A stretch of DNA of 64,000 nt from Cyclobacteriaceae bacterium (GTDB lineage: Bacteria; Bacteroidota; Bacteroidia; Cytophagales; Cyclobacteriaceae). Position numbers and translations under genes: made by a program. Where the stretch lies: contig JAPZUF010000012.1 in the NCBI GenBank assembly GCA_027533395.1, positions 1 through 64,000 of the forward strand, written 5' to 3'. Position 1 is the first letter of the stretch, and every line of letters begins with the position of its first letter. The notes beneath the pieces were generated by a model. It searched no databases and was not told where the DNA came from. It worked only from the letters and a program-made list of their open reading frames with translations. Positions 56,010-61,332 of this stretch are shown piece after piece.

Positions 56010-56615
56010 ATGGAAGCACTTCAAATTAACACGCAATTGTTAGAACAACTCAAGCAACTAGGACAAATGCGTTCGTTGCCACCCGACACAGTGATGATGA
56101 ATGAAGATGATTACATCAACGCTATTCCTATTGTGTTAAAGGGTTCGATAAAAGTGATGCGAACAGATGAAGATGGTCGTGAGATTTTACTTTATTACAT
56201 TAAACCAGGTGAAAGTTGTGTGATGTCTTTTCTGGGTGCAACCTGCAACGAAAGAAGTAAAATAAAAGCAGTGGTAGAAGATACTGCCGAAGTGTTAATG
56301 ATACCCATCAGCAAAGCAACAGAATTAGTTCACACAGTGCCCGGTTGGGTCGACTTTATTTTTCAATTGTATAACCGAAGATTTGAAGAGTTATTGGAAG
56401 TTGTGAATGCGATTGCTTTTCAAAAAATGGACGATAGACTTTGGGATTTATTACAAACAAAAAGTAAACTGATTCAATCGAAAGAGATTACAACAACTCA
56501 TCAGCAATTAGCAGACGAATTAGGCACAGCGCGCGAAGTTATTTCGCGCTTACTCAAACAATTAGAGAAATCGAATAAGGTAGAGTTGGGTAGAAATAAG
56601 ATTACACTACTTTAA
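56010..56615 (+). CDS. Crp/Fnr family regulator
   Basis: The 201-residue protein has an effector domain (about 15-120) and a helix-turn-helix (about 160-200). Its recognition helix has TAREVISRLLKQL with Arg175, Glu176 and Arg180 in the order of the CRP residues that read TGTGA, unlike FNR (which has Val/Glu at the first place). There is no FNR-type N-terminal Cys cluster. Two cysteines (Cys70 and Cys79) in the effector domain could be redox or persulfide sensors, as inference. It lies just before a cluster with three TGTGA-N6-TCACA operators. Confidence 0.9.
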   Translation: MEALQINTQLLEQLKQLGQMRSLPPDTVMMNEDDYINAIPIVLKGSIKVMRTDEDGREILLYYIKPGESCVMSFLGATCNERSKIKAVVEDTAEVLMIPISKATELVHTVPGWVDFIFQLYNRRFEELLEVVNAIAFQKMDDRLWDLLQTKSKLIQSKEITTTHQQLADELGTAREVISRLLKQLEKSNKVELGRNKITLL

Positions 56616-56675: not shown

Positions 56676-56888
56676 CTATGCTGATTTCTTAACTGAACAC
56701 GTATTGATGCCGACTAAACTGTATAGCGGACAAATACTTACAAAACTAGTTAATACAAAAATAGCTGCAGCAGCTACTAACACGTAACCGAAAGTTCCGG
56801 TTACTGTTCCTGTAAAATAAAGAGCAAGCATTACCACAGCTAAAACCAATCTGATAGCTTTATCTGTGTTTCCCATATTCTTTTTCAT
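56676..56888 (-). CDS. DUF2892 (YgaP transmembrane-like) protein
   Basis: The 70-residue protein has an N-terminal MGNTDKAIRLVLAVVMLALYF followed by a second hydrophobic segment, and SICPLYSLVGINTCSV with two cysteines. DUF2892 is the membrane part of YgaP-type rhodaneses; here it is a stand-alone gene. It is divergent from the persulfide dioxygenase gene, and its promoter overlaps operator 56943-56958. Confidence 0.9.
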   Translation of the reverse strand: MKKNMGNTDKAIRLVLAVVMLALYFTGTVTGTFGYVLVAAAAIFVLTSFVSICPLYSLVGINTCSVKKSA

Positions 56889-56942
56889 AATGATTAATTT
56901 TCTGATGATAATTTAAAAATAGAAAATACATTGAATCATCTC

Positions 56943-56958
56943 AGTGACTTATGTCACA
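56943..56958 (-). promoter_or_regulatory. Crp-like operator 1 (AGTGA-N6-TCACA)
   Basis: AGTGACTTATGTCACA. Read toward the DUF2892 gene on the minus strand, its end is exactly 21 bp from TATTTTTA (56914-56921, seven of eight matches to TAnnTTTG). An activator at this distance would sit near -42. Confidence 0.7.
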
Positions 56959-57075
56959 GACGCAGTTCTATTCAATCCATTGAATCTTTTATGTCGGGTT
57001 ATTCTCGAATCATCAAGTATTTTTCATTTTCAGTTTAGGTAAATTATCTATAGTTGATAAAAATCATTTTTCTTC

Positions 57076-57091
57076 TGTAACTCTCATCACA
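57076..57091 (+). promoter_or_regulatory. Crp-like operator 2 (TGTAA-N6-TCACA)
   Basis: TGTAACTCTCATCACA, with its end exactly 21 bp from CAATTTTG at 57113-57120, a -7-like element. It lies upstream of the persulfide dioxygenase-rhodanese gene, whose start is at 57154. Confidence 0.7.
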
Positions 57092-57153
57092 GATTTAGGA
57101 TATTGAAATTCTCAATTTTGAATCATCATTTTTAAATTAAGATAAGCGAATTT

Positions 57154-58575
57154 ATGAAAGTAGAACAGATATACACCGGATGTTTGGCAGAAGCCGCCTA
57201 TTACATTGAAAGCCAAGGCGAAGCTGTGATCATTGACCCCTTACGAGAAACAGAACCTTACTTACAACGAGCACAAGCGGATGGAGCAAAAATTAAATAT
57301 GTTTTAGAAACGCACTTTCATGCCGACTTTGTTTCCGGTCATATCGATTTAGCCAAGAAATCTGGAGCCACTATCGTGTTTGGTCCAACAGCTAAACCAG
57401 GTTACGATGCCTATGTTGCTAAAGATCATGAAGTTTTTAAAGTTGGAAAAGTAAGCATCGAAGTGTTGCATACACCCGGTCATACCTTAGAAAGCACAAC
57501 TTATTTATTGCGCGATGAAAACAATCAACCTTATGCTATCTTCACTGGTGATACATTGTTTATGGGCGATGTAGGAAGACCTGATTTGGTGCAAAAAGTA
57601 AAAGCTGACATTACACCAGATTATTTAGCAGGTTTGTTGTTCGATTCTTTGCGTAATAAAATTATGCCTTTGCCTGATGATGTTATTGTTTATCCCGGTC
57701 ATGGTGCCGGCAGTGCATGTGGCAAGAAAATGGATAAAGAAACTTCTTCCTCATTAGGTAAGCAAAAACAATTTAACTACGCCTTGCGTGCTGATATGTC
57801 GAAAGCTGAATTTATCGAAGCAGTAACAGAAGGCTTAGTGGAGCCACCTCAATATTTTCCAGAGAATGTATTGATGAATGTATTAGGAAATGTGAAAGGC
57901 ATGGATGACATACTTGTAGTAGGCAATAAAGCTTTACCACCTGTTGAATTTGAAAAAGTATGGAAAGAAAAAAATGCCATCATCATTGATGCTCGCAAGA
58001 AAGAAAACTTTGCAGATGCCTTTATTCCCGGTTCTTATTTTATTGGATTAGATGATGCCTTTGCACCTTGGGTAGGCACTTTAGTGTTGGATATTAAACA
58101 ACCTATTCTGTTGATAACAGAAGAAGGAAAAGAAAAGGAAGCGATTATTAGATTAGCACGAGTTGGTTATGATCACACAATTGGTTTTCTAAAAGGTGGT
58201 GTTGAAGCTTGGAAAAAAGCTGGAAAGAAAACAGAAAACTTACAACAACTTTCAGCGCACGATTTCGCTGAGTTGTTTCAACAACAACCCAACTTACAGG
58301 TGATTGACGTAAGAAGAAAAAGTGAATATGATAGCGAACACTTGATAGATGTTCCTAATTTTCCTTTAGATTTTATTCATAAACATGTGAAAAATTTAAA
58401 TAAGGAAAATACTTACTACTTACATTGTGCCGGAGGGTATCGCTCTGTCATTGCATCCTCTATTTTGCGTTCGTATGGTTTTAAAAATCTGGTGAATATA
58501 CAGGGTGGATACAATGCCTTGAGTAAAACCAATCTAAGCCGAACAGATCGTAAAGAAATGTTAACAGAGCTGTAA
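57154..58575 (+). CDS. Persulfide dioxygenase-rhodanese fusion (CstB-like)
   Basis: The 473-residue protein has a metallo-beta-lactamase fold (about 1-245; ETHFHADFVSGH with His54, His56, Asp58, then HTPGHTLESTTYLL, IFTGDTLFMGDVGRPDL and YPGHGAGSACG), followed by a rhodanese-homology domain without catalytic Cys (about 270-355, LLITEEGKEKEAI) and a C-terminal rhodanese with YLHCAGGYRSVIASSIL (Cys active). This layout matches CstB of Staphylococcus, which oxidises persulfides and releases thiosulfate. A role in sulfide/persulfide detoxification is inferred from architecture. It leads the sulfur cluster and has operator 2 upstream. Confidence 0.92.
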   Translation: MKVEQIYTGCLAEAAYYIESQGEAVIIDPLRETEPYLQRAQADGAKIKYVLETHFHADFVSGHIDLAKKSGATIVFGPTAKPGYDAYVAKDHEVFKVGKVSIEVLHTPGHTLESTTYLLRDENNQPYAIFTGDTLFMGDVGRPDLVQKVKADITPDYLAGLLFDSLRNKIMPLPDDVIVYPGHGAGSACGKKMDKETSSSLGKQKQFNYALRADMSKAEFIEAVTEGLVEPPQYFPENVLMNVLGNVKGMDDILVVGNKALPPVEFEKVWKEKNAIIIDARKKENFADAFIPGSYFIGLDDAFAPWVGTLVLDIKQPILLITEEGKEKEAIIRLARVGYDHTIGFLKGGVEAWKKAGKKTENLQQLSAHDFAELFQQQPNLQVIDVRRKSEYDSEHLIDVPNFPLDFIHKHVKNLNKENTYYLHCAGGYRSVIASSILRSYGFKNLVNIQGGYNALSKTNLSRTDRKEMLTEL

Positions 58576-58612
58576 AACTTTTTTACTTTTTAAAAGGAAG
58601 TTATCTTGTAGG

Positions 58613-58993
58613 ATGAAACAAAAAGCTATTATTATTTTATTCTTGCTCACGACTTATGCTTGTAGCCAGGCTCAATCCTTAAAAGTTGTAGATGTAGCAA
58701 CTTTTGAAAAATTAACAAAGGATAAAAATGTTTTTTTGCTCGATGTTCGCACGCCAAACGAGTATAAAAACGGGCACTTAAAAGGTGCGACTTTAATTGA
58801 CTTTTACCAAAGTGACTTTAAACAAAAGTTAGCGAAGCTCGATAAACAAAAAACCATTTTGGTTTATTGTAAATCTGGAGGAAGAAGTAATAATACCGGA
58901 ACCATTCTTAAAGAAATGGGTTTTAAAGATGTATATGATTTACAAGGAGGAATAACTGCATGGGAAAAGGCAGGCAAACCAATAGAAAAGTAA
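58613..58993 (+). CDS. Secreted rhodanese 1
   Basis: The 126-residue protein has a lipoprotein-like signal (MKQKAIIILFLLTTYACSQA) and one rhodanese domain (about 28-126, VFLLDVRTPNEYKNGHLKGA and ILVYCKSGGRSNNT with active Cys). It would transfer sulfane sulfur in the periplasm. It begins 37 bp after the fusion gene and its end overlaps the next gene by 34 bp. Confidence 0.92.
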   Translation: MKQKAIIILFLLTTYACSQAQSLKVVDVATFEKLTKDKNVFLLDVRTPNEYKNGHLKGATLIDFYQSDFKQKLAKLDKQKTILVYCKSGGRSNNTGTILKEMGFKDVYDLQGGITAWEKAGKPIEK

Positions 58994-59490
58994 ATATTAG
59001 CTCAATTCTTTTTTGTATTGTGTTTTTGTTTAATCATGTCGGATTAGCACAAAAGGTTGAAAGTAGCGCTTATCAGTTCATGTTAAACAGTTTACTTTCA
59101 AAGAAAGTGCCAACTGTAAGTGTGGCTGATATTCAACCAACTGATGAAATAGTTTGGTTAGATGCCCGCGAAAAAAAGGAGTTCGAGGTAAGTCATCTAA
59201 AAGATGCCATTTGGGTTGGATACGAAACCTTTGATTTAAAAGGCATTCAACACTTACCAAAAAATGCGAATATCATTGTTTATTGTTCGGTTGGTTACAG
59301 AAGTGAAAAGATTACAGAAAAACTAACCAATGCAGGTTATGTCTATACTAAAAATTTGTTTGGTGGTATATTCGAATGGGTTAACCAAAACAAGCCTGTA
59401 TTTAAAGAGAATATAACAACGAATCAAGTTCATGCTTACAGCAAAACCTGGGGCATTTGGTTGCACAAAGGAGAAAAAGTATTTGATTGA
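58960..59490 (+). CDS. Secreted rhodanese 2
   Basis: The 176-residue protein has an N-terminal signal (ISSILFCIVFLFNHVGLA after a basic stretch) and a rhodanese domain (about 45-145, VWLDAREKKEFEVSHLKDAI and IIVYCSVGYRSEKITEKL with active Cys). A tail with AYSKTWGIWLHKG follows. The reading frame starts 34 bp inside rhodanese 1 in another frame; translation may be coupled. It is part of the sulfur cluster. Confidence 0.85.
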   Translation: MGKGRQTNRKVNISSILFCIVFLFNHVGLAQKVESSAYQFMLNSLLSKKVPTVSVADIQPTDEIVWLDAREKKEFEVSHLKDAIWVGYETFDLKGIQHLPKNANIIVYCSVGYRSEKITEKLTNAGYVYTKNLFGGIFEWVNQNKPVFKENITTNQVHAYSKTWGIWLHKGEKVFD

Positions 59491-59533
59491 ATAGTGAAGT
59501 GAAAATGTTTATCAAATAGCGATTAACAGAGAA

Positions 59534-60397
59534 ATGGAAGAGTATTTAAAAATAGTGAAAGATGCATACACCGGATATTGGCATTACTTGGTGAATGAAA
59601 TCGCTTATCCATCGTGGCATAATTATTTTTGGTGGTTAGTTGGCCTTTCCTTGTTTGTTTGGTTATTGGAGATTATCATTCCGTGGAGGAAAAATCAAAA
59701 AGTTTTCAGAAAAGACTTTTGGCTCGATGGATTTTACATGTTCTTTAATTTCTTCTTGTTCTCTCTCATTGCTTACAATGCCATATCTAACGTAGTAGTA
59801 TATGCTTTTAATGATGCATTAGGTTGGTTGGGAATTCAAAATTTAGTAGCCATAGAAGTTCAGCAATGGCCAGCTGTGTTTCAATTTCTATTGATGTTTG
59901 TTTTGGCTGATTTTATTCAATGGAATACACATCGCTTATTACACAAAGTCCCGGCCTTATGGGAATTCCACAAGGTACATCATTCTGTCGAAGAGATGGG
60001 ATTTGCCGCACACTTACGTTTTCATTGGATGGAGACCATCATCTACAAATCGATTCAATATATTCCATTAGCGATGATTGGTTTTGGCTTGCAGGATTTC
60101 TTCATCGTACACATCATCACTGTTGCTATCGGTCATTTGAATCATGCCAACGTAAACATCAACTATGGTCCACTGAAATACATTTTTAATAATCCGGCCA
60201 TGCACATTTGGCATCATGCAAAAAATATTCCCTATGCAACAGGCGTAAATTTTGGAATTAGTTTAAGCGTATGGGATTATCTCTTCGGCACAGCTTATCT
60301 ACCTAAAAGTGGTAAAGACGAAACATTAGGTTTTGACGGTGTTGAAAATTTCCCTAAGAGTTTTTGGCAACAAATTACTTATCCTTTTAAAAAATAA
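59534..60397 (+). CDS. Sterol desaturase/fatty acid hydroxylase family protein
   Basis: The 287-residue membrane protein carries the di-iron histidine boxes of the family: HRLLH, HKVHH, HLNHAN and HIWHHAKN, with about four membrane segments. Members hydroxylate or desaturate lipids or alkyl compounds. The substrate is unknown. Its place between rhodaneses and thioredoxin is unusual and may point to a lipid or thiol-linked function, but this is only context. Confidence 0.9.
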   Translation: MEEYLKIVKDAYTGYWHYLVNEIAYPSWHNYFWWLVGLSLFVWLLEIIIPWRKNQKVFRKDFWLDGFYMFFNFFLFSLIAYNAISNVVVYAFNDALGWLGIQNLVAIEVQQWPAVFQFLLMFVLADFIQWNTHRLLHKVPALWEFHKVHHSVEEMGFAAHLRFHWMETIIYKSIQYIPLAMIGFGLQDFFIVHIITVAIGHLNHANVNINYGPLKYIFNNPAMHIWHHAKNIPYATGVNFGISLSVWDYLFGTAYLPKSGKDETLGFDGVENFPKSFWQQITYPFKK

Positions 60398-60411
60398 TAG
60401 TTGATAATTAT

Positions 60412-60717
60412 ATGGCAGATGCATTATCTTTTTTCGATAGAATTCAGGGAGAAAAGCCAGTGCTCGTAGATTTCTTTGCTACCTGGTGCGGGCCTTGTCA
60501 AATGATGCAGCCTGTTTTAAAAGAGGTAGCCGGCCAAGTGGGAGAGCAAGCTGCCATATTAAAAGTAGATGTCGATAAGAATCCAGCACTGGCACAACAA
60601 TTTCAAATTCAAGGTGTGCCAACCCTAATACTTTTTAAAAAAGGTAAAATCGTTTGGCGACAATCAGGTGTTGTTCCTGCTCATCAATTAACAAGCGTTA
60701 TTAAACAGGCAATTTAA
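60412..60717 (+). CDS. trxA: Thioredoxin
   Basis: The 101-residue protein has the thioredoxin fold with FFATWCGPCQMMQPVLKEV (active CGPC) and the cis-Pro loop IQGVPTLILFKKG. Length is usual, with no signal peptide. It lies 14 bp after the hydroxylase gene. In this cluster it could recycle persulfidated or oxidised partners, as inference. Confidence 0.95.
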   Translation: MADALSFFDRIQGEKPVLVDFFATWCGPCQMMQPVLKEVAGQVGEQAAILKVDVDKNPALAQQFQIQGVPTLILFKKGKIVWRQSGVVPAHQLTSVIKQAI

Positions 60718-60721
60718 TTTA

Positions 60722-60737
60722 TGTGATGCTTGTCACA
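60722..60737 (+). promoter_or_regulatory. Crp-like operator 3 (TGTGA-N6-TCACA)
   Basis: TGTGATGCTTGTCACA, a full match to the CRP-type palindrome, 4 bp after the thioredoxin stop. Its end is exactly 21 bp from TAATTTTG (60759-60766), a match to TAnnTTTG. Centre near -42 from the expected start point, the class II activation position. Confidence 0.82.
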
Positions 60738-60758
60738 GACTTAGCCGTAAGCATATTT

Positions 60759-60766
60759 TAATTTTG
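60759..60766 (+). promoter_or_regulatory. -7 element of the rhodanese 3 promoter
   Basis: TAATTTTG matches TAnnTTTG, 12 bp before the ATG at 60779. Confidence 0.65.
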
Positions 60767-60778
60767 AAATAAAAAATT

Positions 60779-61105
60779 ATGTTTAATTTATTTTCATTTG
60801 GCACAAAAGCTTACGAAGATTTAAATGGTGTAGAATTTAAGAAGACATTCAAAGAAACTCCTCAAGCTGTATTGGTTGATGTACGCACTCCGACTGAGTT
60901 CAAATCAGGAACCATTCATGGCGCGAAAAACATCGATTATCTTTCAACTTCTTTTTCATCGCAATTTGAAAAATTGGATAAAGGGAAAACCTATTTTTTA
61001 TTTTGTCGTTCTGGTGCGCGCAGCGGACAAGCTTGTGCTTCATTGAGCAAACAAGGATTTAAAGTCTGTAATTTAAGAGGCGGAATTGGGGCATGGCCTG
61101 AATAA
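60779..61105 (+). CDS. Cytoplasmic rhodanese 3
   Basis: The 108-residue protein is a single rhodanese domain without signal peptide (VLVDVRTPTEFKSGTIHGAK and FLFCRSGARSGQACAS with active Cys). It has its own promoter with operator 3 and is followed 2 bp later by a small membrane gene. Confidence 0.93.
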   Translation: MFNLFSFGTKAYEDLNGVEFKKTFKETPQAVLVDVRTPTEFKSGTIHGAKNIDYLSTSFSSQFEKLDKGKTYFLFCRSGARSGQACASLSKQGFKVCNLRGGIGAWPE

Positions 61106-61107
61106 AC

Positions 61108-61332
61108 ATGAAGGCAATATTAAACGATTGGAAAATCTGGCTGATGGCATCACTGACCTTAGGTTTAGCTCCATTTGTACCAGAACCTCATATAGTGGGA
61201 AAGTTACGATGGATTGCAGGAGGCGCCAATGGTATGCAACTCATCGATTGGTTTGATTTTTTATTTCATGGTTTTCCATGGATTTTCTTTTTCAGAGCAA
61301 TGTTTATTAAAATAAAAAACTCCGGACGTTAA
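61108..61332 (+). CDS. Small membrane protein of the sulfur cluster
   Basis: The 74-residue protein has two hydrophobic segments around a conserved-looking PEPHIVGKLRWIAGGANGMQ and ends with basic residues. It recalls small conserved proteins found next to rhodaneses in Bacteroidota. The function is unknown. It is cotranscribed with rhodanese 3; its stop codon lies within the terminator loop. Confidence 0.75.
   Translation: MKAILNDWKIWLMASLTLGLAPFVPEPHIVGKLRWIAGGANGMQLIDWFDFLFHGFPWIFFFRAMFIKIKNSGR

Follow-up and report, generated by a model that had tools for sequence, protein, structure and literature searches.

In the portions of the literature covered here, regulators described as sensing sulfide and persulfide include CsoR-like, ArsR, MarR and OxyR proteins and sigma-54 activators. 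CstR, SqrR/BigR and FisR control sulfur-detoxification genes (for example, those for persulfide dioxygenase and TauE, and yeeE-yedE), and cysteine-based sensing has been described for CstR and BigR (PMC9774590 and PMC7315123, both in part). These proteins are CsoR-like, ArsR-family and sigma-54 regulators, respectively, whereas the protein analysed here has a Crp/Fnr fold. It is encoded in a 64,000-nucleotide stretch (hereafter the window) from a Cyclobacteriaceae bacterium of the phylum Bacteroidota (positions 1 to 64,000 of contig JAPZUF010000012.1, assembly GCA_027533395.1), next to three operator-like palindromes that precede sulfur genes. With moderate confidence, we read the protein from its sequence and surroundings as a Crp/Fnr activator of the class II type that would govern a reactive-sulfur regulon and probably sense sulfane sulfur through Cys70. 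In the covered part of one review 'Fnr' was not found and 'Crp' occurs in the reference list only (PMC9774590), and persulfidation is reported for the Crp of Acinetobacter, a close relative of E. coli Crp (part of PMC7315123). Among the open-licence papers listed in the searches, no Crp/Fnr sulfane-sulfur regulator of Bacteroidota was found by title or start of abstract, nor was a named sulfide or persulfide sensor for this phylum.

PgRsp of Porphyromonas gingivalis, the nearest protein with published bench work, has been described as a novel, heme-binding and redox-linked Crp/Fnr member that binds the hmu, bcp and its own promoters (PMC6955866, in part), and it showed no binding of a fluorescent analogue of cAMP (PMC12040651, in part). 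Judged by residue numbering and length, PgRsp probably belongs to the family of the window regulator. It is a Crp/Fnr protein of approximately 200 amino acids that falls outside the known families, and its Cys76-Met78-His85 register and 207-residue length are those of a P. circumdentaria homolog, which from one possible start reads as 207 amino acids with Cys76, Met78 and His85. PgRsp was modelled on 3DV8 in its study (PMC6955866, in part), the same PDB entry that the window protein matches best by sequence. However, PgRsp was studied as a heme-binding redox regulator; the word 'sulfur' was not found in the main text of PMC6955866, and the covered parts of that study hold no operator, spacing or sulfur regulon. 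The window regulator has Cys70 and Met72, and Cys79 in place of the PgRsp histidine. The 3DV8 protein, a Crp/Fnr protein of Eubacterium rectale, matches with 56.4 bits and has a cysteine aligned in the same segment, and it appears to be of the type that carries both Cys70 and Cys76; its PDB name is that of a putative regulator only, and its source bacterium lies outside Bacteroidota.

Crp/Fnr proteins that use cysteines include CprK, FLP and FNR, which do so via disulfide pairs or an iron-sulfur cluster, and HcpR senses nitric oxide through heme and has hcp as a target. CprK structures (2h6c, 3e6d) are among the fold matches of the window regulator, but 72 of the 104 window-type regulators of the main clade contain Cys70 as their only cysteine. 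E. coli CRP shares with the window regulator the fold, the RExxxR recognition motif and the operator TGTGA-N6-TCACA, whereas the cAMP-pocket residues Glu72/Arg82 are not kept in the regulator clade, which has Cys70 instead.

We propose that the product of the gene at 56010-56615 would bind TGTGAC-N4-GTCACA as a dimer, centred approximately 41.5 base pairs (bp) before the transcription start, and would activate transcription in the class II manner together with the Bacteroidota sigma factor at the -7 element. The genes that it would turn on in this genome are that for DUF2892, the operon of the persulfide dioxygenase-rhodanese, the gene for rhodanese C and, probably, those for a TolC-MFP-RND exporter. 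Sulfane sulfur (persulfide or polysulfide) would most likely be sensed through Cys70, at the position of the cAMP cassette of CRP, and the induced enzymes would remove the sulfur, giving a feedback loop. The predicted pairing of regulator and sites, their spacing and the target set are well supported by sequence comparison; we infer the dimer binding, the direction of activation, the site centre near -41.5, the sulfane-sulfur signal and the role of Cys70. The sites, which refine to operators with 6-bp half-sites, are the following:

56943..56958, minus strand: operator 1, TGTGACATAAGTCACT, ahead of the DUF2892 gene (letters checked)
56914..56921, minus strand: -7-like element TATTTTTA, 21 bp from operator 1 and one base off TAnnTTTG
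57076..57091, plus strand: operator 2, TGTAACTCTCATCACA, ahead of the dioxygenase gene (letters checked)
57113..57120, plus strand: -7-like element CAATTTTG, 21 bp from operator 2 and one base off TAnnTTTG
60722..60737, plus strand: operator 3, TGTGATGCTTGTCACA, ahead of rhodanese C and 4 bp past the thioredoxin stop codon, presumed internal promoter
60759..60766, plus strand: -7 element TAATTTTG, 21 bp from operator 3 and 12 bp ahead of the rhodanese C start

The initial annotation had reported the three palindromes and their common distance to a -7-like octamer. On a base-level recheck, the letters and coordinates of the palindromes were exact, and so was the 21-bp distance at all three sites. 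The -7 element of Bacteroidota, at its usual position, would put the operators near -42. The class II placement that the initial annotation derived is plausible insofar as the fixed 21-bp geometry is class II-like; the presumed transcription start follows from that usual position.

Allowing zero or one mismatch to TGTGA-N6-TCACA, the three operators are the sole sites within the window. The palindrome alone was rejected as evidence: with up to two mismatches it occurs 26 times in the window (32 expected), and the 16-mer with up to one mismatch occurs 73 times in the whole genome (79 in the control), so that it is enriched in neither. In contrast, the composite of palindrome, 21 bp and TANNTTTG with up to two mismatches occurs three times in the window against a null mean of 0.10, a count reached in none of 400 simulated windows. 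Genome-wide (3.6 Mb), the same composite has seven matches, three of which fall within these 3.8 kb; relaxed to three mismatches it is not enriched (37 matches versus 63 in the reversed control). The signal is carried by spacing and location, not by the 16-mer itself.

The initial annotation had suggested searching related genomes for the motif, and the layout does recur there, with the same spacing in loci from the family and from the phylum. In these scans, a gap of 22 in the pattern GTGAC-N4-GTCAC equals 21 bp measured from the 16-bp palindrome. Across 295 genomes of the family, GTGAC-N4-GTCAC-N(8-38)-TANNTTTG gave 83 matches in 71 genomes, 56 of them at gap 22, six at 21, eight at 23 and 13 at other gaps; the reversed control gave 35 matches with all spacings pooled. 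We then considered the regions from 20 bp before to 200 bp past the end of the stop codon of 131 homologous regulator genes, drawn from 80 named and 102 family loci. Here, 84 of the 88 loose matches are at gap 22, compared to zero in the reversed control. Twenty-five of the 131 regulators come from loci picked for a GTGAC...GTCAC site and inflate these counts; for the remaining 106, gap 22 accounts for 64 of 66 loose matches (reversed control, zero). Away from the regulator genes, the 80 named loci contain 47 matches, of which 43 are at gap 22, and the reversed control gave four matches over all gaps; three of the 43 actually lie directly behind copies of a regulator that were excluded as duplicates. 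Additionally, 79 later loci came from a phylum-wide profile search, were not used to derive the motif and have no detected sequence overlap with the earlier loci; among these, gap 22 was found in 19 of 23 matches (reversed control, one). A half-site pair near the stop codon is exact in 12 of 29 loci, two of which repeat earlier loci, and is present with one mismatch in six more, against 0.4 per cent and 2.2 per cent, respectively, of background windows.

The initial annotation had pointed to the adjacent regulator as the binder by its Arg-Glu-x-x-x-Arg contact residues. The motif is present (R175-E176-x-x-x-R180), and the predicted assignment is supported by the conserved spacing, by a site behind the gene in 64 of the 106 homologs that were not site-chosen, and by covariation of residue 176 with the operator. 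Sites were found for 140 of 210 regulators, 126 of them around or behind the stop codon and 14 nearby. Variants of CRP at Glu181 have reportedly been selected for A:T at base 7 by Ebright. In our set, one or both half-sites carry G:C at operator base 7 in 62 of 63 sites of regulators with Glu176, compared to two of 72 sites of regulators with Val176; removal of the site-chosen loci leaves 38 of 39 and two of 72. Five sites of regulators with Ala or Thr at this residue are mixed at base 7. Because the left half-site overlaps the stop codon, the right half-site provides cleaner evidence, and its third base is C in 30 of 39 Glu sites and two of 72 Val sites (site-chosen loci omitted). In CRP, Glu181 contacts the cytosine of the base-7 pair (PMC11253593, in part). 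On a tree of the largest set, built without the recognition-helix columns, residue 176 changes five times; a smaller set gave four changes, and the first tree had a single change between Glu and another residue.

The operator also overlaps the regulator gene in many relatives. The stop codon of the regulator lies inside a half-site (TG-TGA-C or TG-TAA-C) at 55 of 84 sites, at 48 of 64 outside the site-chosen loci and at 14 of the 30 sites near the stop in the phylum set; loci L083-L097 and L188-L267 include such operators. In the window genome, no such site was found behind its own regulator, and hence there is no overlap there. Regulators that combine Val176 with Cys76 (L310, L315, L319, L324, L345-L348, L350) have symmetric GTAAC-N4-GTTAC sites, whereas in the main clade the sites of Val176 regulators are degenerate in their second half (GTAGC, GTAAC, GTTGC, GTGGC).

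The genes between 55.1 and 61.3 kb begin with an EamA transporter, followed by the regulator on the plus strand, the DUF2892/YgaP-TM gene on the minus strand and then a series of sulfur genes on the plus strand:

56010..56615, plus strand: Crp/Fnr regulator, 201 amino acids (Pfam cNMP_binding and HTH_Crp_2)
56676..56888, minus strand: DUF2892/YgaP-like transmembrane protein, 70 amino acids, presumed target of site 1 (PF11127, 77.6 bits)
57154..58575, plus strand: CstB-like persulfide dioxygenase with two rhodanese domains, 473 amino acids (Pfam Lactamase_B and two Rhodanese stretches)
58613..58993, plus strand: rhodanese A, 126 amino acids (PF00581)
58960..59490, plus strand: rhodanese B, 176 amino acids, NF045521 subfamily (192.7 bits, cut-off 145)
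59534..60397, plus strand: fatty acid hydroxylase family protein, 287 amino acids, within the presumed operon (PF04116)
60412..60717, plus strand: thioredoxin, 101 amino acids (TIGR01068, 113.2 bits, cut-off 96.8)
60779..61105, plus strand: rhodanese C, 108 amino acids, presumed target of site 3 (PF00581)
61108..61332, plus strand: small protein of 74 amino acids without a Pfam match, whose homologs lie beside sulfur genes in relatives

The dioxygenase matches 3tp9 and 3r2u end to end (residues 4-456 against residues 28-463 of 3r2u, which we take to be CstB), with the motif HFHAD at 54 and a single CAGGYR at 425. It is predicted to have the CstB-like layout of a metallo-beta-lactamase domain, a pseudo-rhodanese and an active rhodanese.

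In relatives, the genes behind such sites belong largely to the same functional range. A first gene lies behind 83 of the 84 regulator-adjacent sites, 20 of these 83 being in site-chosen loci. By Pfam, the first genes are TauE/SafE (36), YgaP-TM (29), Rhodanese (seven), DUF6132 (three), OEP (two), DUF302 (two), AhpC-TSA (one) and TPMT (one), and one has a Lactamase_B domain; two of the 83 (L128, L177) are probably wrong-frame open reading frames (ORFs). Among the 43 sites found elsewhere in the named loci, the gene behind the site is homologous to the window dioxygenase in 29 cases and is a rhodanese gene in one. Behind the other 13 are genes named by eye as TauE-like, DUF6132-like and Dps-like and a protein of 187 amino acids, and one site has no gene call. 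The 187-residue type is a Sulf_transp (YeeE-like) protein, as confirmed on one member. Further first genes in the family set are TolC-MFP-RND operons and peroxiredoxin-like, thioredoxin, CoA-disulfide-reductase-like, OsmC-like and SulP-like genes, several of them named by eye.

The divergent arrangement of the DUF2892 and dioxygenase genes recurs in three other genomes of the same genus, where each of the two genes is faced by an operator-like site; one of the three DUF2892 sites is weak (2+2 mismatches). In two of these genomes, sites also precede thioredoxin and a second dioxygenase, and in all three a site precedes a weakly DsrE-like gene (tested on one member, below the DsrE cut-off). TauE lies behind the regulator-adjacent site in the same-genus genomes. 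In the genome of the window itself, a further site at C26:121897-121941 (L078:9898-9942), consisting of CGTGACTCATGTCACA, 21 bp and TACTTTTG, lies ahead of a TolC-MFP-RND operon. The regulon is therefore probably larger than three genes, with the RND operon in the window genome and TauE/SafE, Sulf_transp, thioredoxin and others in relatives. The same-genus sulfur clusters also encode a protein of 601-602 amino acids with a Tat-like motif (L278:8253-10061, L277:5753-7561, L279:3758-5563); the L278 copy falls in the metallophosphatase/5'-nucleotidase family and might be SoxB-like.

The regulator matches only Crp/Fnr-type Pfam families at an E-value of 0.001 (PF00027, 40.9 bits; PF13545, 38 bits; PF00325, 25.2 bits; all above cut-off), which places it in the Crp/Fnr superfamily and outside the CsoR, ArsR and FisR folds. 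Its AlphaFold model (pLDDT 86.3, pTM 0.62; lowest at residues 71-80, 59) has CRP-type folds as its top matches in the PDB. The protein is not a CRP equivalog (57.9 of 266 bits in NCBIfam). FNR, the iron-sulfur protein, is defined by an N-terminal cysteine cluster, and the window regulator lacks one, its cysteines being at positions 70 and 79 only. Its recognition helix reads R175-E-V-I-S-R180. Members of the regulator family were found in 75 of 198 genomes of the phylum that are at least 90 per cent complete (match at E <= 1e-30).

Cys70 lies in the former cyclic-nucleotide (cNMP) cassette (GESCVMSF) and, in an alignment with CRP, adjoins Gly71-Glu72 of the cAMP cassette (equivalence of the cassettes judged by eye). 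In the main clade, the position of CRP Glu72 is Met in 103 of 104 proteins, Arg82 is retained in five of 104, the window protein among them, and Ser83 is present in all 104. Every one of the 54 complete homologs in the family set retains Cys70 itself (a 55th row is a cut ORF that lacks the region), and so do all 81 distinct homologs of the phylum profile search (the window's own included) and all 131 proteins of a mixed set that was partly selected for the cysteine. For the 80 named loci, this constancy is circular in part, as the scan pattern contained the cysteine; the homology-based sets are the fair ones. Cys79 occurs in nine of the 104 main-clade proteins, and Cys76 is additionally present in a sister set of 27 and in 46 of the 81 phylum homologs. 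Cys70 is a candidate sensor, a role made more plausible by the loss of the cAMP pocket and by the single-cysteine proteins; it may instead have a structural or redox role.

The same regulator and sites could instead answer a general redox, heme, nitric oxide or peroxide signal, with the sulfur genes as part of a wider thiol-protection response. We regard this as unlikely, though as deserving real weight. PgRsp binds heme as well as the hmu, bcp and its own promoters, and its mutant is more sensitive to H2O2 (PMC6955866, in part); peroxiredoxin-like genes (L130-L133, L164) and a Dps-like gene, all named by eye, are also found behind such sites. However, most first genes belong to sulfur-handling families, heme left the migration of PgRsp-DNA complexes unchanged, and variants of Cys76, Met78 and His85 still bound heme (PMC6955866, in part). 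Another view, which we consider improbable, is that the regulator is a repressor or responds to no signal, gene levels being set by its abundance. CRP-like proteins that bind DNA free of ligand are described, namely CrpPg (part of PMC12040651) and DdrI (part of PMC11253593). Against this view, the fixed position upstream of the -7 element would fit an activator, and the constancy of Cys70 would suggest a sensing role.

It is more doubtful still that another Crp/Fnr protein binds the three sites and that the adjacent gene is a bystander. Besides the regulator gene, at least two others of the Crp/Fnr type are present in the window genome, and one same-genus genome, G104, keeps the site before the RND operon with nearly identical 44 bp (L140 from 3022); no close regulator was detected there (best E-value 3.8e-5). 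Yet the two other Crp/Fnr proteins are only 19-20 per cent identical to the regulator and have different recognition helices (by eye), and operator base 7 tracks residue 176 of the family whose genes the sites so often follow. Chance palindromes near chance A+T-rich octamers, a notion favoured only by the 16-mer being no commoner than expected, are rejected by the simulated windows and by the recurrence of the layout in the same genus and phylum.

Several observations weigh against an activator that responds to sulfane sulfur. Of the sulfane-sulfur response put forward in the initial annotation, the Crp/Fnr regulon and its sulfur-gene targets are supported, whereas sulfane sulfur as the signal is read from those targets and from Cys70; PgRsp, the probable ortholog, has been linked to heme and redox at the bench (in the parts of its study covered). 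G104, besides the regulator not found there, shows no such sulfur cluster in the stretch around its remaining dioxygenase pieces. Among the regulators that were not site-chosen, 42 of 106 have no composite site behind the gene, the window's own included, and the full composite lies behind the stop codon in just two of 21 new regulators (with ORF) from the phylum search; the ORF filter of this test included the cysteine, whereas that of the half-site test on 29 loci did not. The covariation of residue 176 and base 7 was rejected as statistical proof and is taken as consistent only: of the three independent supported pairs, 2.8-2.9 agree on average, a number too small for a sign test to reach significance.

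Finally, the 21-bp spacing does not appear to be specific to the window regulator and suggests a general Crp/Fnr geometry in these bacteria, because a site with FNR-like half-sites (TTTGAT) ahead of an ATPase cluster has equal spacing. This site, at C26:232305-232349 (L079:8306-8350) of the same genome, precedes Usp-like, CcoI-type ATPase and HemN-like genes (the ATPase by Pfam, the other names by eye), and a gene for a response-regulator/CRP fusion lies approximately 11 kb away. As another Crp/Fnr protein is the more probable binder here, this site was not counted in the regulon.

Returning to the activation of sulfur genes in response to sulfane sulfur, we give about even chances to a broader proposal. 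In this proposal, many Bacteroidota would use the regulator as their main switch for reactive sulfur, and it would be the first persulfide sensor of the Crp/Fnr type. The cAMP cassette would have been taken over by Cys70, which stands alone in the clade of the window and is accompanied by Cys76 in sister groups. The operator would lie over the regulator's stop codon in many relatives, residue 176 would have retuned base 7 several times, and PgRsp would be included, its signal having been mis-assigned. Because the family combines a precise operator with a fixed spacing and a single constant cysteine, the question of the signal can be tested directly. The family also allows PgRsp of P. gingivalis to be read in terms of sulfur and provides a natural example of a CRP-like recognition residue that covaries with operator base 7.

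Among the genes near such sites, the Dps-like gene (named by eye) lies behind a site of the same spacing on the minus strand of L267 (position 2268), a hint of a link to iron or peroxide stress. In relatives (L094, L143, L278), homologs of the 74-residue protein are encoded beside rhodanese, dioxygenase or hydroxylase genes. The fatty acid hydroxylase gene at 59534-60397, which sits in the presumed persulfide operon, has an NCBIfam match to OlsE below the cut-off and is kept in relatives at 76-78 per cent identity (L094, L277, L278).

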